Source: Sphagnum magellanicum (taxonomy: Eukaryota; Streptophyta; Sphagnopsida; Sphagnales; Sphagnaceae). Taken from it: DNA of 64,000 nucleotides. A program made the position numbers and the translations under genes. The DNA is taken from positions 3,102,501 through 3,166,500 of the forward strand of contig CM038911.1 in assembly GCA_021904315.1 (NCBI GenBank), written 5' to 3'. Below the pieces are notes generated by a model, which ran no database searches, was not told where the DNA came from, and saw only the letters and a list, made by a program, of their open reading frames with translations. Position 1 is the stretch's first letter, and each line of letters begins with the position of its first letter. Of this stretch, positions 3,061-53,736 are shown in pieces.

Positions 3061-3100
3061 ATATCCCCGAACCTGCACACGCCATATCCCCGAACCTGCA
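3061..3100 (+). repeat. 19-bp tandem duplication at the edge of the inverted-repeat arm
   Basis: The word atatccccgaacctgcaca occurs twice in tandem, separated by a few bases. The left arm has only one equivalent (near 140-155). This small duplication therefore followed, or marks the breakpoint of, the larger inverted duplication. Confidence 0.8.
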
Positions 3101-3235
3101 CAGTCCTCTTTCAACATTCAATCACACTTGACATCATCTTGACGTTGAAGATTGAGAATTTTCATTCTGGTCACATAATTACGCGTGTGCTTCGTTTGTG
3201 TGCAGTACTATATATAAAACGGATGCTGAATTGTC
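3085..3235 (+). repeat. Right arm of inverted repeat: germin-like promoter
   Basis: This is the inverted partner of 3-157. It ends just after the TATA box of the germin-like gene and about 245 bases upstream of its start codon, so the duplicated unit includes the core promoter. The two arms are separated by about 2.9 kb. Confidence 0.85.
3209..3219 (+). promoter_or_regulatory. TATA box of the germin-like gene
   Basis: The sequence tatatataaaa lies about 260 bases upstream of the ATG at 3480. Transcription would then start near 3240-3250, giving a 5' leader of about 235 bases. The same box is preserved in the inverted copy at 22-31, which supports its importance. Confidence 0.65.
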
Positions 3236-3479
3236 ATACATCCAACACCACCGGCATAGTATTCAGTGTAGTTCTAAGAGGGGACTTCTGACAGGGATAA
3301 TCTGAGCACTTTCCCACATCTCACACAGGGAATTATCCAGGAGCTCCAGCTTGTACTAGTTCATACACTCAGTTACGTAGCCAGACATACTCTCGTCAGG
3401 TTTGCCAACCCAGCTGCACTAGATCTAGAGTTACAACTGATTTCCACAAGTCACTGAGCTTTCACAGTAAGCTGCAGCC

Positions 3480-4428
3480 ATGAAGATTTACAGTACTGAT
3501 CATCCACGCTCCTACAGCGGCCAGGCTTGGAGCTCACTGTGGGGTGCAAATCTCGTGCATCATGTGTTTGCGTGCACTGCTCTAGCATTACTAGTCATTA
3601 TGGCTGCAATGACGTCGACCATGGTGCAAGCCTCGGATCCAGATCAATTGCAGGATTTCTGCGTGGCAGATCTGTCCCCCGCCAATCCTGTAAAAGTCAA
3701 TGGCTTTCCTTGCAAGCGCAGCGCAAATGTTACTTCCAAAGACTTCCTCTTCACGGGCCTCCGTACAGCTGGTAATTCGCTATTCCACATAACAGCTTTC
3801 AACTTTGCCATTACAAACATGTTTATATAATTGGCCAGCACGTCACAGATGATTGCTTTTCTTATATGCTAGTCCAGCTCATGATGTACCGATCGCATTC
3901 TAACACGACTGAAAATTTAACACTCATGTCCCATATCTTGCTGAATTGGGCCATTTGGTGATGTATTGAACAGCGAATGTCTCTACCACCGGTATAAAGG
4001 CCTCCGCAACGTTTGCAACTGTGTTCGAGTACCCAGCTCTCAACACACTCGGCATCTCCCACGTCCGACTGGATTTCGGTCCCGGGGGAGTTATTCCTCC
4101 CCATACCCATCCTTTGGGTTCGGAGACATTGTACGTGCTGGAAGGCACCATTTACACGGGATTTGTGAGCTACGAAGGTGTGCTGTACGCAGAAACCCTG
4201 CAAGTGGGAGACATGTACGTCTTCCCAAAAGGCACTATCCATTTCCAAATCAACGTAGGTACTGGACATGCCGCTTCCTTGAACGCTCTGACTTCGCAGA
4301 ATCCTGAGTTATTGTTTGTAGCAAATCAGTTGCTGGGGAGCAACATCCCCGATGCAGTGCTGGAGACGTCCCTGGGAATAAATGCCAAAGCGCTCAAATA
4401 TCTCCAAGCCTCTCTTCCTTCCGTGTGA
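3480..4428 (+). CDS. Germin-like protein (cupin), two exons
   Basis: The coding exons are 3480-3771 and 3974-4428, joined across a 202-base GT-AG intron in phase 1, giving 248 residues. Residues 28-50 form a hydrophobic signal segment preceded by an unusually long n-region of about 27 residues. The mature protein probably starts near SDPDQLQDFC at residue 52, giving the usual germin size of about 197. C61 and C78 are the conserved disulfide pair. Cupin motif 1 (G...HTH...E......G) supplies H141, H143 and E148. Motif 2 (GDMYVFPKGTIHFQIN) supplies H187. All four manganese ligands are present. NVT at 83 and NVS at 99 are N-glycosylation sites, the second made at the splice junction. Germins are secreted apoplastic hexamers. 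Some have oxalate oxidase or superoxide dismutase activity, and the sequence does not decide which applies here. The start has a good context (gcagccATGa). Confidence 0.95.
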
Positions 4429-10250: not shown

Positions 10251-13200
10251 TTTGCTTGGTCTCGAGACCCTCTCTTTTTGGTTACATTAGAGTTGATATG
10301 GTGAATTCAGCCAACCTTTGACAAATGGGTTTATTTCCTTCTCCAAAAGCACAAATGTTGAAAACACCATTTGCAAACAATAATAACCGACTCCAAATAA
10401 CATGAACAAATGGGTTAATATGTTGTTTACTCAATTTAATTTTTGTGAGCATAAAATCACTTCTAAGCAAAAAACCTGGGTTCCTAATTAAACTAATACT
10501 CCCTTGAACCCTTGCAAATCACATTAAGGGCATGTAAATACAATGCACATATTAGACATATTGATCATGTAGGAAATTTAATATTAAAAAAAATGGGTTA
10601 CCTAAATTAACCAATTTACATGAAATTTGTTGTAACCTGTGGGGGGTAATGAATGGAACACTTATTGGCTGAAAATCAAATGCCATGTTTTAACCCACTA
10701 AATTAAAAAAGTTAATTTGCGTCACCTGCAAGCAATACAACCCACCCAAATCAAACCAATGCAAAATTTTAACAATGGCAAGTTAAAACAGTTACAGCAT
10801 TAATTCCAGAATCAACCAAATTGATACATTGCTAGAATTAACCATGTAGTGGCCATCTATAATTTATGATATATGACTAAAATCTCATTTCAAAACATTT
10901 TCTTCACATAATGTAGTGGGGCATTTAACCATATAGGTACTTCAAAAGACTCCACCTCAAGTCCTAATGGACCTTAAAATGGTAATTCCATTGATCTATA
11001 TAAATATATATTAGATTTCAAAGATGTGTTCCCAAAATTAAATTGCACAAAGTAACAACTCCACAATCTGCCAATATAACTAAATTCTTTAGTGTTAGTA
11101 TATTGCTATCTACTCTGCAATAGATGTGTGTTTAAATTTGCATGCACTCATGCATATGGTATTACACATACAAATGCTAGCCACTTCAACTTACTCGAGG
11201 AGCTAGTTGGAACATGTGATGTGAAACTAGCCCAAAGCTTGCTAATGATTGTTGTTAATAGAAGATAGTCCACTGTATGATTCAAAAATTTGTAGTTAGA
11301 CAAGTTGGAAGTTTGGGATTGAAGCACTAACAAAGAGAGGTGGTGAAAAACATTATCAAATTTTCACACCAAACAAACCCTAGCCAATGTTTTTTTATAA
11401 TTGATTATATTCAAGTGTTTAACAACTTCTGCATAATGTTCAAAAAATCAAATATCAAATATTATTTGTTTGATGCACACCCCTGCTTGATTTGATTTGC
11501 ATTGAATTTTCACACCTCTGCATAAGCTTGCTAGTTATTCCTCCCAAATTACTTAGTGATAAGGTTCAAACTACAACCAGTTAGTTTGCACATGAAACTT
11601 GTTAGATTGGATGTCAAACCTTTTCCAAACTTGAATATATTTTAGATCTAAAATCTCATCATGTTGCTGCGATTTTGAATTCTGATACATGTGCTTAAAG
11701 GTTCATCAGATTGGACCTTGATGCACATCAACAAGTGCAAAACTTCAAGCTCCAATGTTGATGCAGCTAGCTTACATAACTTTGATGTGTCTTGAAGGGA
11801 CCTAGTCTGCCAACATTGTTATTGTAAAACTCTACTACCAGCTCCATGAAACAAGAGGCCAAACAATAGCTCCAACCAAGAAGCTTGAGTTAAATTAGCT
11901 AATAGACCCTTTCTTAGAGACAGTAGTTCAAATCTGCACATTCATTCCTACCAAACAAATGAAAGTCCATGTTATGGACACATCGGTGAGCTCTCCAATT
12001 CACACACTCCTTGCAGCCAAGTTTTTTTTTCAAAAACATGCGATCATTATCTTACAGGCTTCCAAGCGTGCATCACCATGAAAGTTGACGGATAGGTTGT
12101 ATTTTTGAAGCTACTATGCACACAGTCGCTTGTGGCAAGTTTAGCATCTCAATGATTTGCAACAAATGACATTGAAGTTGAAAGCTTCAGTAGATAGTGC
12201 ACATGATGGGACACTTGACATAACATTGAACTCCTCAAACACACATGCCATAATCAGCACGAGGGAAAGAAACATTTTTTGAGAAAAACAACTACATAAA
12301 CCATTGGATCAAAACGAACGGTAAAGATGCCATTTTAAGGTTCTGGAAGACAGATGAAAAGAAAACATACATTTTTCATAGTGCATCCACATTTTTCAAA
12401 TGAACACTATTTGGTTCTTTGTTGGGTGCTTCAAACAATAGTTCCTTGCATTTGATTCGATTTTGCATTCAACATACATGGAATTTTCAAGTGGGATTTG
12501 TTGGACTTAATTAGGTTGGGTAGTACACAAATGTCTTTGTGACTTCCAAGGGGAAAATTTCTTGGAGATTTTTTAAACTAAAAATTACACATAATGGTGA
12601 AAGGCATCTAAAAAAAGGCCAAACCATGTTCAAGTAAATTTCTAACATCATGGTTAATTTTTCTATACTTTAATATGCAACTTTACCTCATACATCATGT
12701 ACATTAAACCATATTTACATGTCACAAAGGACTCTTGAAATTCTAATGACTCTGAATTTTGATAAAATTTTCAACTTACATATTTTTAATGTTTTGAGTG
12801 CTTTTAAAGTGTGTATAGTGGTTCCCTACCACCCCAAAAAAAATCAATGTAAAAAGGATGATATTGTGCAAATTAAAGGGCTTTTTATAAAATGAAAATT
12901 ATGTGACGCTACACCTATCAAACTTTAATGATATGTTCCTCCAAAAAAATCTTCAAATTGGGCCCATTGATAATTCAATTTACATTTTTCAACATTCAAA
13001 TTAATTGTTAAGCATAAGTTCCCACAATTAACATGACATTTAAATGTTGCCATATAGACATATGTAGAAAGGTTTCTATTTTCACCACTATTTGACAGGG
13101 TTTTTGGCTCCTTTAATCATACTTTTGCCTTCTTTCAAAATTTATGGATGGTTTTGAGAATATAAATGAAAAGAAGCATCAAAATTCATTAACATCAAAT

Positions 13201-13307
13201 CAATTTGTTTGTTGAGAGGATGATGGAAACAAATCACTGGAATAATTTTATTGAATGACAGTAAAACTTGAACAAAATTCATAAAAAAAGACCAAACACC
13301 AATTTGA
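10251..13307. other. Gene-free AT-rich stretch
   Basis: About 3 kb with only short chance open frames. I found no recognisable gene, RNA or repeat boundary. It begins just after the GC-enriched island and ends at the CACTA element at 13308. Confidence 0.5.
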
Positions 13308-14155
13308 CACTACTATGAAACATGGTTTTTCAAACGGTTCAAGTTGACTGATTGGTCATTTTTTACTAATGGACATGTTCATTTTGATTAGAAGTCCAAA
13401 ACATGTATTTTTTGACCAATCAAGTTGACTAGAGTGATTTATTTGACTAATACATCTAGTCAAGTTAAATAACCCTAGTCAAAATGGTCAATGGGTCTTA
13501 ATCAAATGGGACATCTAGTCAAATTGAACATCTTATACCTAGTACATACCTACCTGCTACCTCCCACTTATAATTTTATAACCTACCCACCTACCAACCC
13601 ACCCACCTACCTACCTACCCACCCACCAATCTCCTATAACCTTCCTACCTTCAACCTCATAGTCTTGTAGCAAACTGTTGAAATAAACATGTGAAATAAA
13701 AAAATTGACAAAAGTTGAACACCTTTTGATGGTGTGGTCCATTGGTTTATCATTAGGGAGGTCAAGGGTTCAATTCCTAACATTATAACCTATGTAAATG
13801 TTTAAGGGGCTAAGGTAGGTAGGGTAGGTTAAGTAGGATATACTAGGTTGGGTTAAGGTAGGTCAAGTAGGATAGGGTAGGCTACCACCTACCTACTTAT
13901 TTGCCTGCCCACCTTTTTATGACCTATTTACCTACCAACCTACCACAATTTTTTTCATATGGGTAGAAATTTGATTATTCAAAATGGCTAATCAAATGGT
14001 CCATACTCTGCTAGTAGAAAAAACCACCTTAATCACAGTGAACTTATCGAAATTGACTTGTCCAAAATGATAAAGTGGTCTTTTTGATGCCCGTTCAAAC
14101 TAGCTATTTTCTTACTAGATTTGCTAGTAAAAAAAGACCATGTTTTTTAGTAGTT
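13308..14155. mobile_element. Non-autonomous CACTA element, 848 bp, with TGA target duplication
   Basis: The left end starts CACTACTATGAAACATGG. The right end, read in reverse complement, starts AACTACTAAAAAACATGG. Both are flanked by TGA, the 3-bp target duplication expected for CACTA (En/Spm-type) transposons. Subterminal repeats of ctagtcaa and its complement crowd the first 220 bases. No transposase is encoded. A SINE-like head and a CCTACC-rich block are nested inside (13700-13930). Confidence 0.8.
13700..13930 (+). mobile_element. SINE-like element with tRNA-type promoter and CCTACC/GGTAGG tail
   Basis: An A-box-like tggtccattgg (13735-13745) and a B-box-like ggttcaattcc (13767-13777) stand at a spacing usual for tRNA-derived SINEs. 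Downstream is a ggtaggt/cctacc-rich stretch. A similar head followed by the same type of tail occurs at 23365-23560. I cannot define the 3' end or a target duplication. It is nested in the CACTA element. Confidence 0.45.
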
Positions 14156-14539
14156 TGAACCCAATGACGAATTCCAAATGCAACATAAATTGCAAAGGAA
14201 ACATTACTCCAAACATTTTGTTGTTTCATAATCAATAAGGTTTACAACACCATGGTCATATGATCTTTTGCTCCTAGAGGATTTTGGAGAGGGTAATGAG
14301 GCCATGTGTCGAACAATGTCCTCGGCATATCCCAACAAGTAGTTGCTTGAAAGGGGGTTTGGGAAGAAGTCCTGCAAAGCATAAAATGGAACAAACCAAA
14401 AATGATTAGGTTGGATATTTCTACATAAAATATAGAACATTAGCCTAAAATGAGAGGCATAATAATTATGAAAGAGACAATTAATGATGATTAATGTCAA
14501 CTTACTCACAATCAAGATTGATTCGAGTTTTTTTTTTGA

Positions 14540-16060
14540 GTGGTGAATATGGGGGAGGTCAAGAAGAAAAGCTAGGCTCCAAATTAGGTTTAGATTTCTC
14601 CAAAAGAGGTTTCACAACCTTTTCATATACATCATTGTCAAGTTTCAGCACAAAAACATCACTGCCAATAGATTCATAGGCTCAAATGCAATTCCCTGCA
14701 AAACAATCAAAGAAAATAATATTTTAATCATTAGGCAACACAGATTGTTGTTTTAAGCTTATAAAGAGAAGTCAAGATGACATACCAGTGGATGAATTCA
14801 TGGTGACAACTAGAGAACTAGGACAACTGTAAAGGTGCATAAGAGCCTTCAATGTGGACACTTGCATCTCCTGATCTCCTCTGAATGGTATACCCCTTCT
14901 TGACTTTTCCATTATATCAATGTCTATGCGATTTGGTAGGATATCATCCTCATTCGTAGAAACACCGAGCCTCACCATCTCTAACTGAATTTTTTGAAAC
15001 TGGAATCCACCCATTTGGCAAACAAAAAAGTCACCCAACTTAGTTGAGTTTGCAAGATTGGGAATGATATGAGTTAGTCCAATATGATTCTATGGAATGA
15101 TAGGTAATGTAAATACAATTCAGTAGGGGAATTACCATTTTCCCCTTGATTTCGCTACTCATCCGTAGTAGAAAATTAATTACTGCCCATTTGAAATGGA
15201 TTTCATAGCCATTCGTCTCTAATAAGGATTTGATTTCCTTGAAGATATGAGGGGTCATCATGGAAAATAAGAATTACACCATTCTTTTCCATGTATTTAT
15301 TTGCAAAACCAAATATCTTGGACACATAGTTATTTATGTGACAGTTCCAAGAAGGGACAATAGTGGGAGGTATGGAGATAAGAGGGATTAACAAGTCTGA
15401 AGAAACTTCAGTAATGAGGAGAGTAGGCTTACCAATTGTAGAATCTTGCAAAGTGGAAGGAAAATTATTAATAACTTCCAAAATAGTGCAAATCATGTGA
15501 AATGCACATAAGGAGTTTCCTATTTGTACCTTTAAGAGCATCTTATTGAGTTCATTGAACTGAATGGGCCACGAGCGAGAAGAAACCTTTACTACCACCA
15601 TGTTTGGACAAGAAAGATTACAAGCTTTGACAGTTAGCTACATGAGGGTATCGCTATTACTTGGGAGCTCAATGGATTTGGGATGGGATTTTGAAGAAGA
15701 TCCAAACTAGGATCTGCATCAATATTCAAGAGTTGCCTCTTTTGATGGACAATTTAAGACTGTAAACCTTTTGGGTTTGGAACTAGTTCTTCTTCTTCTA
15801 GATCCTCCTCATCTTGTTTGTCATTTGAGGGTCCAATAGATTGGTCTTTGGTCTTCCTCAACTTTTTTGCATTGTGGCTCTTCTTCCCACCCCTAAAACT
15901 AAAATTAGTTGAAGTGGGCTTGTCAAAATGCACATCCTCAAACTTTTCTTTTAAGTTGCACTTTGACTTTGGGGTACTATTAGCTAGGTAGTTTAAGTAC
16001 CACCCATAGGATGCCAAGTGGCCACTCGACCACTCTTTCAAGAGGTCTTGAGGAGTTTTT
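14540..16060 (-). pseudogene. Methyltransferase-like coding fragments of a dispersed element family
   Basis: Reading leftwards there are several protein-like segments. The first is an acidic/basic linker (16041-15754, with GKKSHNAKKLRKTKD and DEEDLEEEELVP). Next is a segment with ISIPPTIVPSW and FANKYMEKNGVILIFHDD (about 15601-15270). Then comes EIKSLLETNGYEIHFKWAV (near 15240), followed by GIPFRGDQEMQVSTLKALMH and SSLVVTMNSSTG (15040-14772), and finally GSDVFVLKLDNDVYEKVVKP (near 14650-14600). The order resembles a circularly permuted N4/N6 DNA methyltransferase: a weak DPPY-like motif IV, then FRG, then a D-x-F-x-G-like motif I, then a (G)RxxxxLExD-like strand. The key residues are altered, so activity is unlikely. 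Pieces are separated by acceptor-like sequences, suggesting exons. The region looks broken. Its class (host gene or mobile element) is undecided. Confidence 0.4.
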
Positions 16061-16634
16061 TGCTTTAGAATCGCACTAAATCCTAAGAAGCGGAGGCAGG
16101 TTGCAAATTACCTCCTTTGCAAATAGAACATGGGGAAAATACCTATGGTAAGGAAATGGGGTTAAATGTGTGGAATATTGCTCTTGAAGCCAAGTACAGA
16201 ATTAAGCTAGAACATGGAAAGGAAGATATGTCCTTTACTTATAAATCACTTGTTTTAGAGTTTCTTCACCACTAGTATGTTGTTACCAAGTCTTGTTTTT
16301 TAGGATTCCACCTTTCATCTTGAATTCACCATAAAACAAAGACTCCCATAATTCAAGCTTTTAATGACTTATGAAGTTTTCAAGATTCTGAACTTTGACA
16401 CTCTTGAAGATAAATGCACCAAGGTCCGTGACTGTGTTATTAAAAAGCTTCTTAGCCTCCACTTCCAATTACAATGATAACACAAATGCAAAGCCATTAA
16501 CACGAACGCGCAATGAAAAAGCTTTAAAATAATTTTAATGTACAATCAAGATGAACCAGTAGGGTACTTGAAATTAAAATGTTGATTTATGAAGCCATTT
16601 TTCAAAAATGGCATCCAATAACCCGACCTTAGGA
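16061..16634. other. No recognisable gene
   Basis: AT-rich sequence between the methyltransferase-like fragments and repeat R1 copy 2. I see no supportable feature. It may be intron of the minus-strand coding-like unit. Confidence 0.4.
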
Positions 16635-17500
16635 AATCTCTGAGTTTCCCTGAAAACCGATGATGCACCCCCAAACTCCTCAAAAGATTCAAATGCGAGT
16701 TCGAAGGTGAAAACAACCCAAAAAAAAAGAACTAGGGTACGTTCCCTAGCTCGTAACACTTTGGGGGTAAGAGGGGCATGTTGGAGTTCCAGGATGGGGA
16801 CTAGAATGAATTCATAAGTGAATGTTTGAAATGAGATCAACTTGCACAACCAAGAAAAGAGGGAAATTAGTGCAAGTTGAATGGAAGTGGTGTGATAGAC
16901 TTAGTAGGAACAACCTCAAACACAAACTTTACATGGCCCACAACCTTTGGGAAGAAGCACCATTCCCCTCCCTATAGTATACTCTATGCCTTTCCATGGG
17001 GACTACATCCAAATGTCACTTTCCCCAAAGATTCCCAAATGGGAGTCCCAAAACTAGGACTTTTGTTGTCCCAAAACTTTGGACGTTCATATTTTTTTCA
17101 AATCAAATCTATTTTGATAACACAAGGGAAATATCTTATAGCCCTAAAAAGGATCTTTCCAACAGTGTATATCACGCCCAAATCGGACCTCATTTGACCC
17201 TTGCTTTCTAAGGATTTATGGTCGGGAGTCAAATTCCCAATTTGACTCCCACCCTTTCTTTTGATCATAACTCATGCAAATCAGGTTTAAATGAACAATG
17301 TGAGGGTGCTTTAAGCATCTAATCTTCAATAAATTTCTAATGGTGTCTTGGGCAACCAATTTGGTGGTTGTTTGCCTTTTCAACCAAGGCTTTGAACATT
17401 CACAACTCTCACATGAATGCAATTCCCAAAGTGGGAGTGCACTTGGGAGTCATTGGGTTTCATCCCTTGCACTCTCCCCCATTTGTGAAAGTGTGTTTCA
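16635..17500 (-). repeat. Dispersed repeat R1, copy 2 (LTR-like), inverted
   Basis: Read on the minus strand it follows copy 1: cactcccactttggga, then a gagtcaaattgggaatttgactcccgacca block, then gggactcccatttggga, then catttggatgtagtcccc, then ctagtccccatcctgga and a long downstream part that matches copy 1 to gggggtgcatcat. It appears inserted in the minus-strand coding-like unit between 16.0 and 17.6 kb. It has few CpGs and looks old. No open coding region is present. Confidence 0.6.
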
Positions 17501-17599
17501 CACCTAAACACACTTTTGGCCTCATGGGCCATTGCACTTCACATGTAGTCGTGAACCCAATGTTAGGGTTACAACAATCAAAGATTAGTTCCACTACTT

Positions 17600-18760
17600 G
17601 AGCAAGAAAACCTTCTACTTGTTGTTCATTTATGAAAACACAAGCAACTGCAACTTTTCAATCATCATTTTTGGATCAAGATTGATGTTATAATGAACCT
17701 TTACTTGTTGGAGAAATTTAGGGTGAAATGCAAGGTCATGAACGGGCAATCTCTTATGGAACGCTATCATGTGTTCCTTTTGAACATTCTCCATTACCTT
17801 GTTACTTAGTGAAGCTAACATTTCTAGGTTTCAAAAAGCAAGATCTAGAACATCTATATAATACAAATAATGTGCAACATCAACAATAGTCGCAAGTTCC
17901 CTCTACAAAAAAACATTTGGCTCAAAATTAAATGCAATTATTTTAGATAATGGAGTTCATTTAAGAAAAGATTTTGAAAATTTACCTCATACATAAACTC
18001 AAAAAATGCCTCATGCATGAGGCTATTCTAAGTCTTCTTGATTTTATTTTCGCATTTTTTGTATTGGGTATTTGGAATGACCTCTTTGAATTTGTGGAAT
18101 GGAATCATTTTGATGGATTAATGTAGAAGAAATCATGAACAAATGATGGTTTCACGTGGTTTGGATATCAATGGACTTGCAAAGAAAAATAATGTTAAAC
18201 ATGAATAAGACATTGTTTGACATTTATGGAAAAAAAAATAGACATTAATAATGGAAACTCATTTTTTTATGTTAGTCATAGTTGTAAGCAGCTTAACTAG
18301 CCTATTTGTTGTGTCTAGAAGAAATGAATCAACCTTGATGTGCCAATTGGGCTCGTTGGGATGGTTCACATCAATGTATGGTCACCAAGCCTAAAGTCAA
18401 TGATTGTCATCCCAAACATGAAATATTATTTTAGATAGCCAATAAAGATGTGAATCCTCAGCCAAGAATTTTTCAAACTCCACATTCTTCTCTTTCCAAA
18501 GAAAACTCCAAGTATCAATGTGATTGCACACATATTCTTCCTCACCTTACCAGTTTGTTGAGGAAACATAAAATGCCTTCTCACCTTCCCAATAACCCAT
18601 GAAAAACACTTGTTCCATCTTTAACATGTTGATTTTCAAATCTAGCTTAACAATCAACATGGTCAGGAGTCGACACAAAGGGATATTTATCCTTGCTTTA
18701 TTTTTCAAAAGGATTTTGTACTTGTTTAGAACCTCCAAAGTATTTAGCTTATTCTAACGT
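17600..18760 (-). pseudogene. Minus-strand coding-like fragments of unknown family
   Basis: Protein-like segments on the minus strand include VNHPNEPNWHIKVDS and LLDTTNRLVKLLTTMT (near 18370-18290), WSFLWKEKNVEFEKFL (near 18510-18460), IPFHKFKEVIPN (near 18100) and a 63-codon frame at 17821-17630. They are acidic/aromatic and continuous with each other in a way chance frames rarely are. I do not recognise the family. They lie upstream, in transcription order, of the methyltransferase-like pieces and may be an earlier part of the same unit. The region is broken. Confidence 0.35.
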
Positions 18761-19039
18761 TGAATTACTTCTATGGTCCTTTGGCAATTGGACTCCTCCT
18801 ATGATTACATAAATGGGAAATAGTCATCTAGTTGAAAGAGTACAAATTTATCCCTTACAAACAAAAAAAAGAAAATGACAATGTAAGAAAATGAAAAAAC
18901 TAGAGACATTATCCCAGGAAGTTATATGAAGAGGGGAATGTTTCTCAACATTTGGCCTACCACTCGGTGCTAACCATTGAAAGAAAGCTTTTCAATTATG
19001 ATACTAATACTAGTGATAAAACTTCTTGGAATCTTTTTA

Positions 19040-21790: not shown

Positions 21791-22179
21791 TCATGTTTCA
21801 TTCCAAGTTAACATAATTCAATATTATAATTTATTATAGTAAATAGGTTTATTTTTATGTTTTCAAAAATATTATATATGTGCTACTTTATGATATACCC
21901 TATATTATTTTAAGCTACTTTAATTATTTTAACTTATACCTTATGTTATTATAAATTATTTTATTCTAAGTATAATAACTTAAAATAATATAAAATAACA
22001 TATAATGACCTAAGGTAAATAAATTAGAATAGAAAATAATAACCTATGAAGAATAATTTAAAATACCCTACAATATAACAACTACCAATACCTATGATAT
22101 TATAACATAGAATATCCAACAATAATTTATAATAAAATAATCACCAATAGTTGTAATATAACATATAATAACCAACAAT

Positions 22180-22745
22180 AATTTATAATATAATAACCAT
22201 CAATAACCATTAATAACCACTAATATCCACTAACAAAATATCCACCAATAGCCATTAACATAATAGCCACCAATAGCCATTAATATAATAACCATTAATA
22301 ACCACCATATCCACTAATAGAATAGCCACCAACAACCACTAATATAATAACCATTAATAAGCACCAATAGTCATTAATAGAATAACAACCAATAGTCATT
22401 AATAGAATAACAACCAATAGCCATTAATAGAATAACAACCAATAGCCATTAATAGAATAATAACCAATAGTAATTAATAAAATAGCAACCAATAGCCATT
22501 AATAGAATAACAACCAATAGCCATTAATAAAATAGTAACCAATAGTAACTAATAAAGTAGCAACCAATAGCCATTAATAAAATAACAACCAATAGCCATT
22601 AATAGGATAACAACTAATAACCATTAATAAAATAACCACTAATAGCCATTGATAACCACCAATAAAATAACCATTAATAACCACCAATAGAATAGGTACT
22701 AATAGCCATTAATAACCACCAATAGCCCCAATAAAATAATAACCA
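22180..22745. repeat. 25-bp tandem satellite
   Basis: The unit aatagaataacaaccaatagccatt (25 bases) recurs at least eleven times in strict register between about 22375 and 22640, with divergent copies on both sides. Typical variants are aataaaatagcaacc and ccaatagtaatt. The array decays outward into similar aataacc/aatagcc words to about 23000. It contains no gene. Confidence 0.9.
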
Positions 22746-23364
22746 ATAACCATATATTAGAATTATTTAAAGTTGCCAAAAGTAATCTAAGGTGAAATAA
22801 TTTGTAATAAACAAAAGTAACTTAAGATGAAATAGCCTACAATAACCTAAAATTGTTAATAATAACATAGGGTGAAATAGCCTTCAATAGCCAAAAATAA
22901 CCAATAATAACCTCACATAATAAAAAATAACCTAAGATGAAATAACTTAGAATAGCCAAAAGTAATTGAGAATAGCCATAAATACCATAAATAATGTAGG
23001 GTGAAATAATTTAAATTAATGAAAAATAGTCATATAATAATTGAAAGTAGCTTAACATAGGTAGTATTATTATATTATCAAAAATCCTATCCATTTATTA
23101 AACTTCATTTTCTCCAAAAGAATGGTCATTGAAGTGTTATTAAATAATGATATTCAATTTATGTTTTTGTTCAAGTGATTTTACACTTTCAAAAAGAAAT
23201 AAATGTAATTATGTACATTATTGAAATTTTTTAAAAAGTAAACACAAATCATTTCGTTTTAACAAAATCTCAATAGAATATGAATTTTCAAAGTTTATGT
23301 TTTTGTAATGTTTAAAATGAAGTATTTTATAAATAGAATGTAATGTAACATATTATCATAACAA

Positions 23365-48139: not shown

Positions 48140-51100
48140 CTAATCTGATTGTACATTGATGGAAGCAGCTGCCTTCTTCATATCCTCCAGGGCATCAACA
48201 CAATATTGACTAAGTTTCTCAGGGTCGGGAATGAGATGTTTAGAACTCATAACCACCAAGCCTGCCTTTCCAGCATAGCTCACCAAGTAAAAGCATAGTG
48301 ACTGCACCCACACAAAGAAAAAGGGTTGATTAGCTGTGTGTACACAGTATGGACAAGCATATTATCTCCAAAGATCAAGTGGGTAATCCCCATAATAGAG
48401 GCAACGCCTTGAAGCACATCATGTGGTTATATAACCCGTGTTGGGTGGTTCTTTCATTTTGTTGTAACCTCCAGTGCAAGGATTTTGGAAACTTTCGGAA
48501 TGAAAAAAAATGCCTGGTTCCAACCTTGGGCTTCAGATATTTGAAAATTTTCAACAAACCTGCTGGTTTTAATAAAGAACTGGCAAAGAACTGGCGATTT
48601 CAGGGTACGTTCTGTGATGGGCTCTTTGGGTCTTTGAGAACTGTGGTTTATGAGTCAAAACTGGCTCTTTGACTTTCTGAGAACCACTGGTCAAAGGGTC
48701 AATATACCCGACACTTACCCACTGGTTCTTTCTTTTGAAAAAGAGAGAACCCACCCACACTGGATATGACATTCAAGTTGCAATTTTGAGAGTTTCCATG
48801 CATCTGAGGCCATTTCTGAGATTTCTTTTCAAGTCTGAGATTATGTCATGGCTTTTTTGCTGTTGTTGGGTATTAGAAAAATGCAAGATTGTGAAGAGGA
48901 AATGCATACCTGTGGGTGTCCAGAGACCACAGGAAATATGTGAACAATTGGGTTATTATCCAGCATGACAGGCTCGATAGGACCAGGAACATTTGACACT
49001 GTCAATGTTGTCTGCAGGATTGCGCGCCGTGTGAGCATTGTTGTCAGCTGCAAAAACCAAACAATCTCATAGCTATTATGAACACATTACTGTAAATCAT
49101 GAAAAAACCTAGTTTTTAGGAATCATCAAACCATCCTAACCCTAAATTTTCACCATCCACAAGCAAAAGGCTGAACATGCTACCTTCACAAAAAAAACCC
49201 AGCATTTAGACACAGAGAACAGATGAACATACATAGGATCTATGATAGAAGAGGTGTAAGAAGAGAAAATGAAACATACAGATGGGCCTGCAAGCCAGCT
49301 GAGAAGTGTTGCGCTCCAGAATGTGAAAAGTCCTTCAAGGGATGCCTTTTTACTGTCACTCACTTTCTTGGCCGCACGGACCTGGTCAAGAGGGTCACTA
49401 TAATGCTTGAGAGAAATTGGCAAAACCAAGTACCCCATGTGGTTTCCCCAGCGCACCTGTGATCCTCCTGCCATCATTGCCTCTAGCTCCTGTACAACCA
49501 CAGGACCATAGCTTGAGTACATCATACACACATATATATACCCTTCAAAAAATGGGTCTATAATCTTTAGGTTTACAAAAAAAAGGAAACAAAATTCATT
49601 TCAAGGCAAATGCCTCATGAGAACTCTTGTGTGTCAGGAACTTTTGCCAAAACCTAATAAGAAAGAAAGGCCTCAAAATCAGTCAGGTACCAGATGATAC
49701 CTGTAGGCCCGGTGATGCTCTAGTGTTTACCAAAGCTGCTGCACGTATTCGAAGGGCTTCTACTTTTTTTGAAGTGTCTCTTGTTTGAGAAACCACTCCA
49801 TTTCCTGTTGTTCCATCAATGGTCATTTCTTCAATCGTCTTCCTTGCATTCATTTGAGATTCCTGCCCTTGACCCTCCTCAACTGCCCCCCAATATAACC
49901 ATTTCAAGTGTTAAGACTTCTTGAGGCTTTAACAACTTAAGGGATCAAGTGTAACTGAGTGCATACTGGCACAAACAAGAAAAACTAATATCATCTTTCG
50001 ACTTTCCATTTTCCCCATTTTGGCACTTCAACTTCTCAATGAAGACATTGTCAAATGAAGTTGAAAACAAGTACTATTATGGTGTCTGGACCAAGCAACA
50101 GAGGCAACCCACTTTACCATTGTCTCAAGGAAAAAAATTCACATGACTGTATACATGTGGTGGATACACACACGAACATAAATTCCTCATGTTCCAAAAC
50201 TATTGTCACCTGTGACAAGACAAATCAAATGATACTCATACAAATTGAGAAAACAGATAACATGATCCAATTTAGGTCAATTCTAACACACAGACATAAT
50301 TACCACAGCAGTGGAAAGAGATGGAGATGGATTGCAAGAACTGAGATGCAAAATTGGTTCACAAAACCATACAAGTATTATGGTTGGCAGGGAGAGTAGA
50401 AGCTTCATTGTAACGGCCTTGCAAATAGCGATGGAGAGATGCACCTATCATACCCAATAACACATCATTGATTGTCTGCCACCCACCACCACCACCCAAG
50501 TTCCAATTCCCCCAATCATTGACAGCTCTTGCAAAACAATACTTTTGCAAACAATACCACAGACAAAGATGCTTGCTTGATTTCTCTGATCAACTCTTCT
50601 CCATGGATACAACAACAAATGTGTGAGAGACAGTAAAGAACTTACCCCACCAACAGTGTTCTTCACAAACTTCATGTCTTTCATGTTGACCTCAGTAAGT
50701 ACAAGAAGCTTGGGTTGTTGCTCGACTCCTGCAGAGCCTTTGATCACAGTGTCACTGTCTTTTAACCACAACACCGTTGCCAAGAAATAGAAAATGCCCC
50801 AAACTGTATTCACCAAAAGAACAAGCATCTTCCAAAAAGATTGCAGAAAAGATTGTCTAGCAGCCACTGCGCTTGATTGTCCCAATGAGACTGGAATTGA
50901 AGGCAGCTTCTCAGGATTATCTGTCTGCCGTGTACTTGCCAGCATGAGGGACATGAGAGAAGTTCCATCTCCTAAAGAATGATGCATCCGCAAAACCACA
51001 TGTGCAGCAGCATTCCCTGATGTTCCATTCAGTACATGACATTCCCATAGCGGTCGTGATGTGGGCAACGGTGGTGCAATTGCAAGATCACAGACATACT

Positions 51101-51643
51101 TCTCAACAAACCCTGGGGTTGCAATTTCCGCTTCTGAGATGCTTGATGGCTCAAAGACATGAGCATCCATGTCCACTTCTGTTTCTACCCAGACCTCAAC
51201 TCCCTTTCTGTTCTTCTTCTGCATTCTCAAAAGAAAGTTAGTACATGAATTCTGTGCATGTGTGGAATACTAGAGAAATCAGCTACCAGCTAAACCTAAA
51301 CCCTAAAGCCTATACACAACAACAAATGATGATAAGAAAACGAAACAAGACTCACCACAATGCTGGTAAATCGCTTGTGTTTCACCAATGTGTTCTTGAC
51401 AGCTTGCTTGAAGGATTCCAAGTTGATGGTCTTCTGAAACCCCATGGTGCACAAGATGGTGCAGCACAAATCAGGTTGAAGAAACATTCTTCCAGCTGGT
51501 GTGACAGGCTCTTCCTCCGTTGATTCTGGTTCCCTCTCTCCTAGAGCTCCTGCTCCCTCTGCCGCCCTAGATTTTAAGCCACCACTCTTGTTTATTTGAA
51601 GATGTCGAAGCTTCAATTCCGACACACCCTCATTTGATGCCAT
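48140..51643 (-). CDS. WSD-type wax ester synthase / diacylglycerol acyltransferase, seven exons
   Basis: Exons in transcription order are 51643-51356, 51218-50646, 50475-50373, 49882-49701, 49489-49280, 49047-48910 and 48301-48140, all with GT-AG introns, giving 551 residues. The protein joins fatty acyl-CoA to a fatty alcohol or diacylglycerol, making wax esters (cuticular wax) or triacylglycerol at the ER. EEPVTPAGRMF (44-54) and KHKRF (88-92) open the acyltransferase domain. RPLWECHVLNG is at 151-161. The catalytic HHSLGDG is at 175-181. A hydrophobic helix lies at about 225-247, and INDVLLGM at 289-296 is the ND motif. The C-terminal DUF1298 half includes VSNVPGPIEP (469-478) and ends at LIPDPEKLSQY. 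An in-frame stop lies upstream, fixing ATG 51643 as the first start. The exon 3 donor is uncertain: gtatgg at 50372 keeps GRYNEAS, and an upstream gttaca also fits the phase. The gene looks intact. Confidence 0.93.
48724..48751. repeat. 28-bp near-palindrome in the last intron of the wax synthase gene
   Basis: The sequence ggttctttcttttg...agagagaacc pairs with itself almost completely. It lies in the 608-base final intron together with several agaactgg/actggttct words. Role unknown. Confidence 0.7.
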
Positions 51644-53204: not shown

Positions 53205-53736
53205 GTGAGGACCAGCCCTTACGAGCATCTCCAACGGTGCTCAGTATGTAACTCTGGATAGTAAAATTAAATGTCGAAGTTTAGCTGTTTTTGTTTTTTT
53301 TTTTGGGCAACCCCACTAATCAAATTGAAACTGCATATACATTGGGGACTACTAATAGCAAACCACCTGGACCAATCATTGTGTGAGGACCAGCCCTTAC
53401 GAGCATCTCCAACGGTGCTCAGTATGTAACTCTAGATAGTAAAATTAAATGTCGAAGTTTAGCTGTTTTTTTTCTTTTTTTTTGGGCAACCCCACTAATC
53501 AAACTGAAACTGCATATACATTGGGGACTACTAATAGCAAACCACCTGGACCAATCATTGTGTGAGGACCAGCCCTTACGAGCATCTCCAACGGTGCTCA
53601 GTATGTAACTCTGGATAGTAAAATTAAATGTCGAAGTTTAGCTGTTTTTTTTTTTTTTTTTTGGGGCAACCCCACTAATCAAACTGAAACTGCATATACA
53701 TGGGGGATTACTAATAACAAACCACCTGGACCAATC
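53205..53736. repeat. Tandem triplication, unit about 178 bp
   Basis: Three nearly identical units start gtgaggaccagcccttacg at 53205, 53383 and 53562. They differ by a few substitutions and by the length of a poly-T run, so the amplification is recent. Each unit contains the left terminal repeat gagcatctccaacggtg of the element at 53223-53998. Confidence 0.92.

Follow-up and report, generated by a model that had tools for sequence, protein, structure and literature searches.

Decayed gene fragments in Sphagnum magellanicum as the probable remnant of a methyltransferase-derived accessory gene of a large Mutator-like transposon

VANDAL Mutator-like elements of Arabidopsis are described as carrying accessory genes beside the transposase, with VANC as their anti-silencing protein (PMC10398659, PMC5735166, PMC6446971), and fungal DNA transposons (KDZ and others) as carrying TET/JBP dioxygenases, a DNA-modification cargo proposed to counter silencing (PMC12730594). 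Mobile DNA methylases likewise occur in DIRS and Ty3/gypsy retrotransposons with DAM or DCM domains; the same source records retrotransposon-borne DNA-modification genes from other eukaryotes, as far as algae and charophytes, and states, as of 2019, that transposon-borne DNA methylases are absent from land plants (PMC6338049). We consider it probable that the gene fragments described here, from the moss Sphagnum magellanicum, represent a decayed accessory gene that belonged to a Mutator-like transposon, an element that is large, old, and present in many copies and whose methyltransferase-derived accessory protein would act on the DNA of the element or against its silencing. The moss element resembles VANDAL in its architecture and differs in that its accessory protein derives from a methyltransferase. 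The fungal elements differ in having a dioxygenase as cargo, fungal hosts, other transposases, and duplications of 2-8 bp, according to the part of the account that covers them (PMC12730594). The DIRS and Ty3/gypsy carriers are retrotransposons, whereas the moss carrier appears to be a DNA transposon. Among the best-ranked matches in the open-access literature, no report of the moss family was found.

The remnant in the window and its relatives in the genome

The window, that is, the whole stretch of 64,000 nucleotides that was analysed (C5:3102501-3166500), is part of a 31-contig genome with a total length of 438,994,042 bases. Decayed coding pieces on its minus strand, between 14559 and 16468, follow the motif order of the beta-class N6/N4 DNA methyltransferases, in which motif IV precedes motif I (Table 1). 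The segments named by the first-pass annotation (a motif IV-like stretch, FRG, SSTG, and an acidic strand) are all present, on the minus strand and in the order it gave. They lie in a remnant that is homologous to other genomic copies over 13130-13296, 14158-16657 and 17580-19030, with about 66-91% identity within the element (blastn). Outside 13130-19020 the window copy has no match to the C15 locus; both its termini and the transposase gene are lost, and the copy is dead. At the intron inside motif I, GT is found in 15 of 16 other aligned loci, AG in place in nine, and both in eight. The first part of stretch e is probably an intron as well.

Table 1. Features of the transposon remnant, in window coordinates
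Feature	Position	Strand	Basis
Transposon remnant, both ends missing	13130..19030	-	blastn against 19 other genomic loci
Later insertion in the element; ends (CACTACTA.../...TAGTAGT) judged CACTA-like by eye	13297..14157	.	Missing here in most other copies
Later insertion of another repeat	16658..17579	.	Missing here in most copies; found elsewhere in several
Upstream coding piece f (..ELWESLFYGEFKMKGGILK..)	16253..16468	-	tblastn conservation between copies
Coding piece a (LLKEWSSGHLASYGWYLNY..)	15865..16050	-	tblastn conservation between copies
Coding piece b: motif IV region (15421-15344) and downstream part	15043..15780	-	tblastn conservation; profile match to methyltransferases
Coding piece c: FRG and first half of motif I, running a few bases into the intron	14772..15089	-	tblastn conservation
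GT...AG intron inside motif I	about 14696..14785	-	Splice-site alignment among copies
Coding piece d: end of motif I and following acidic strand (VFVLKLDNDVYEKVVKPLLE)	14559..14681	-	tblastn conservation
Stretch e with C-terminal coding piece (DFFPNPLSSNYLLGY.., 14371-14327)	14207..14527	-	tblastn conservation
Motif IV region, LLITEVSSDLLIP	15421-15383	-	
Motif IV region, SIPPTIVPSWN	15376-15344	-	
GVILIFHDD	15280-15254	-	
FRG segment, IPFRGDQE	14891-14868	-	
First half of motif I, SSLVVTMNSSTG	14819-14784	-	
Acidic strand after motif I, VFVLKLDNDVYEKVVKPLLE	14657-14598	-	

As DNA, the segment 14540-16060 has at least 44 matches in the genome; 13 of these span 1,284 or more of its 1,521 bases; one is the window itself, and the remaining 12 are 76-91% identical to the window sequence. 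The joined pieces of two copies, used as a protein query, gave 115 matches, the distant ones at 25-35% identity, and distant family members used in the same way gave at least 150 and at least 148. Merging the first of these two match lists left at least 147 distinct methyltransferase-like loci, and the methyltransferase-like matches listed run down to 31% identity. The fragments thus recur across the genome with shared flanks, as the first-pass annotation had considered possible. Twenty loci of 9.9 kb were compared (L009-L028, of which L009 is the window locus), and nine distant loci of the family were read individually. The wider family was gathered by similarity to the window family and not to methyltransferases, which limits the risk of bias in its later comparison with these enzymes, though some of that risk is still present.

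Window 11052-19024 has a second copy (L010) on its own contig, at a distance of about 100 kb; the two are 90-96% identical, with the piece 11906-12325 inverted, and the pair looks like a local duplication. CACTA elements were mentioned by the first-pass annotation as neighbours of the fragments, and CACTA-like ends, named by eye, were indeed seen nearby. Such ends (CACTACAACAAAAGGTG; CACTACTAGAA) are found at or in copies of the element, from about 19040 onward in the window and at L030:4034-7445. In Sphagnum divinum, CACTA elements are counted among the most abundant repeats (PMC9946827).

Resemblance to beta-class N6/N4 DNA methyltransferases

The beta-class N6/N4 DNA methyltransferases (PF01555 type, represented here by eight phage proteins) share with the moss gene the order motif IV region, later part, motif I, and acidic strand. 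The reference set consists of eight of 26 phage matches, all eight annotated as DNA methyltransferases or methylases, and the moss alignment of 13 rows, which were selected and assembled manually from pieces of exons. Compared by hhalign, the two profiles match in order along 194 columns, beginning with the strand that precedes motif IV and ending with the one that follows motif I (probability 94.4, score 57.3, P 8.7e-8). The best score in 40 column shuffles was 19.8, two reversed profiles scored 12.6 and 9.8 (P 0.57 and 0.89), and circular permutation of the reference broke the match into two parts. When each of the eight references was omitted in turn, P ranged from 8e-8 to 9e-7; the nine distant rows alone gave P 6.7e-8, and a 9-row moss alignment P 1.3e-4. 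Each half of the reference also matches the moss profile by itself (P 1.4e-4 for the motif IV half, 1.5e-5 for the motif I half). The likeness to a permuted N4/N6-type methyltransferase, first noticed by reading the fragments, is therefore borne out at the profile level, where none of the controls reproduces it. Neither a match to another fold nor a single-copy sequence devoid of methyltransferase similarity was found. Two PHROGs named DNA methyltransferase add a weaker signal (E 0.0044 and 0.0048), each matching one of the 13 members.

Family databases were far less responsive. No methyltransferase match was obtained when PHROGs were queried with eight separate pieces, and no family match when Pfam was searched with six window pieces. 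Single open-reading-frame pieces gave no usable match in Pfam, PDB, or NCBIfam (best single piece against PDB, E 0.84), and the family profiles had no match in PDB. In Pfam and NCBIfam nothing exceeded the curated cut-offs, the weak Pfam matches being to other families (best E 0.01), and PF01555 was absent among the Pfam hits of the 13 family members. An AlphaFold model of one window piece, made without an alignment, was uninformative (pLDDT 40.5). The window subfamily alone compares weakly with the phage references (12 rows, P 0.0078; four rows, P 0.004), and since its pieces are also unmatched in Pfam, the case for homology depends on the wider family.

A transposon accessory protein of unrelated origin that resembles methyltransferases by chance or convergence would go unrecognised by family databases, as the moss protein does, and would agree with the weak P values (0.004-0.008) of the window subfamily and with an alignment whose rows were joined by hand. 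We hold this explanation to be very improbable in view of the independent matches of both halves and the outcome of the shuffle, reversal, and permutation controls. From the profile comparisons we conclude that the moss gene is homologous to beta-class N6/N4 DNA methyltransferases, a claim that leaves membership among the enzymes aside.

The family departs from these enzymes in several respects. At the DPPY site it has [DENKQ]-[VI]-x-x in the 24 readable loci; in the profile alignment DPPY stands opposite EVSS of LLITEVSSDLLIP (NVPW of L056) and not opposite SIPP. Against the FxGxG of beta-class motif I, the moss rows have NSSTG or STST-like sequences in which the glycines are mostly replaced, and unlike the beta-class enzymes the moss family has an intron inside motif I and no Pfam match. 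Within the detection limits applied, viral contigs, prokaryote genomes, and phages yielded no relatives, and recent acquisition from a virus or phage that has been sequenced is thus unsupported.

The carrier element and its second gene

The C15 copy extends from C15:9478043 to C15:9499999, or 21,957 bases; subtracting the 3,412 bases of a CACTA-like element nested in it leaves 18,545 bases, and further nested inserts are possible. The element is accordingly about 18.5 kb long. A shorter element of 4-6 kb was considered and rejected, as its supposed end breaks turned out to be insertions or truncation. Two of the compared loci, L014 and L015, align in a single stretch of 9.0 kb that reaches near the edges of both. 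The left end (GGGATGYTA...) was seen in six further copies, with flanks that are unrelated by eye. Candidate terminal inverted repeats are GGGATGYTATTTGGTGA.. on the left and, in reverse complement, ..GATGCTAACAAATGAG.. on the right; they are imperfect, and the right counterpart is poor. Target-site duplications of 9-10 bp flank two of the four copies read at both ends, ATTTGCATG at the C15 copy and CACATTTTAC at the C2 copy; among the other two, that of the C12 copy is approximate and of low complexity, and the C20 copy has none. The C15 and C2 duplications fall within the range of 8-11 bp given for Mutator-like elements (MULEs) in the literature (PMC6446971).

In its right part, on the opposite strand, the element carries a gene for a transposase-like protein, pieces of which were read in L030-L033 and in a relative, L067; it has at least 150 matches in the genome. 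All three transposase-like fragments checked contain the motif TCLFH or ICLFH, which is a motif and not a profile match. In our reading, [T/I]CLFH corresponds to the C(2)H signature that Mutator-like transposases have in their DDE domain. The MULE profile PF10551, with 150 matches listed in the moss genome, has none to the transposase-like pieces of L030-L033 and L067, and the only Pfam matches of these pieces were two below the cut-off, one with a DUF and the other with an oxidase domain.

Among the loci listed, the two genes form 36 pairs at most 20 kb apart, of which 27 are divergent, three convergent, and six on the same strand. The divergent partners stand head-to-head, 4-19 kb apart, and two of the 27 pairs have a single transposase locus in common. 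When the transposase loci were placed uniformly at random (1000 trials), there were on average 0.66 divergent, 0.63 convergent, and 1.29 same-strand pairs, with maxima of 4, 4 and 7. Mere clustering of repeats would give these orientations at about 1:1:2, and the bias is therefore evidence that both genes belong to one element. A mobile element as carrier, which the first-pass annotation had raised as a possibility, thus agrees with the recurring ends, the target-site duplications in two of four copies, and the two-gene architecture. Several matches of both genes, methyltransferase-like and transposase-like, occur on C20, a contig of 4.72 Mb that from its size and number is perhaps the sex chromosome.

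State of the coding copies and possible role of the protein

Translated comparison shows one protein common to all 20 loci of the window subfamily, and all 20 copies are broken. Stop codons occur within the compared pieces of 19 copies (2-14 each, with 334-583 residues compared per copy), and a frame change within at least one piece is found in all 20, including L015, which has no stop in the compared pieces and changes frame within piece c. A part of these stops and frame changes may fall in introns, above all in stretch e. Pieces b and c are in different frames in many copies, for which an unrecognised intron may be responsible. At motif IV, [D/N/S]PP[Y/F/W] occurs in none of the 24 readable loci (19 of L009-L028, L021 being frameshifted there, together with L045, L047, L056, L058, and L059); elsewhere L044 is ambiguous, and L043, L046 and L057 are without a DPPY-type motif. 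One distant member has ANVPW at this site and another VDVPK, and several have kept VVDLS or VMDLS at motif I.

These residues of the distant members, and a motif order like that of the beta-class enzymes, would suit the idea that intact members, with a motif IV like DVPW, encode an active N6-adenine or N4-cytosine methyltransferase and that it methylates the element, in the manner of the adenine methyltransferase of DIRS retrotransposons. We judge such an enzyme unlikely: no intact copy was met among those read, all 20 copies of the window subfamily are broken, and the 24 loci have no DPPY-type motif. The first-pass annotation spoke of a family with its own methyltransferase; as far as a functional enzyme is concerned, this is unsupported. 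The catalytic motif being changed wherever it is readable, binding without catalysis may be at least as likely as methylation, and the accessory protein is perhaps divergent and non-catalytic.

The median pairwise dN/dS in the reading frame is 0.45 (190 pairs), as against 0.62 (189 pairs) and 0.69 (190 pairs) in the two shifted frames and 0.64 (189 pairs) in antisense; the codons were derived from tblastn, which leans towards similarity, and the difference between frames is modest. We read it as a modest sign of past selection on the protein, before its decay. This lower in-frame ratio also bears on the idea that a methyltransferase gene was captured by chance and is a passenger with no role in the element, in line with the tendency of Mutator-like elements to acquire host gene fragments (PMC6446971). 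Capture of this kind seems to us improbable, in view also of the 27 head-to-head pairs with the transposase-like gene, drawn from lists that reach down to such low identity, and of the PF01555 profile, which at E 0.001 had no match in the moss genome and detected no host homologue (11 of 14 control genomes were positive); no host gene of PF01555 type was found there.

On our preferred reading, that of an accessory gene in a Mutator-like transposon, the transposase would cut and paste the element, and the methyltransferase-derived protein, retaining a base-recognition scaffold, would bind or mark the element's own DNA; DNA so bound or marked might escape silencing by the host or be recognised by the element's own transposase. 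By analogy with VANC of VANDAL and with TET/JBP of the fungal transposons, the protein probably has the DNA of the element as its target or counteracts silencing. Broader, and more tentative, is the possibility that the family represents a land-plant lineage of giant DNA transposons in which a bacterial-type DNA methyltransferase, its catalytic motif rebuilt, was repurposed for self-marking or anti-silencing. It would then be the first transposon-borne N6/N4 methyltransferase of land plants and a counterpart of the fungal TET-carrying transposons. If this is true, the moss would offer a system for testing how plant transposons use a methyltransferase-derived protein against silencing, the cargo would have been kept beside the transposase through large divergence, and one could test whether 6mA or 4mC in mosses might have a mobile-element source.

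Elsewhere in the window, an open frame with a cupin domain lies on the plus strand at 3970-4425 (PF00190, E 1.7e-27), and two separate open frames on the minus strand at 49145-51266 hold gene fragments of a wax ester synthase/diacylglycerol acyltransferase (PF03007, E 3.7e-15; PF06974, E 9.6e-11). Positions 3-170 and 3069-3236 form an inverted repeat with arms of 168 bases, 90% complementary and 2.9 kb apart. AT-rich tandem repeats occupy 21982-22965, with a central spacing of 25 bases and AATAACCACC-like units, and a tandem array at 53205-53736 consists of three 179-base units with 96% matches.
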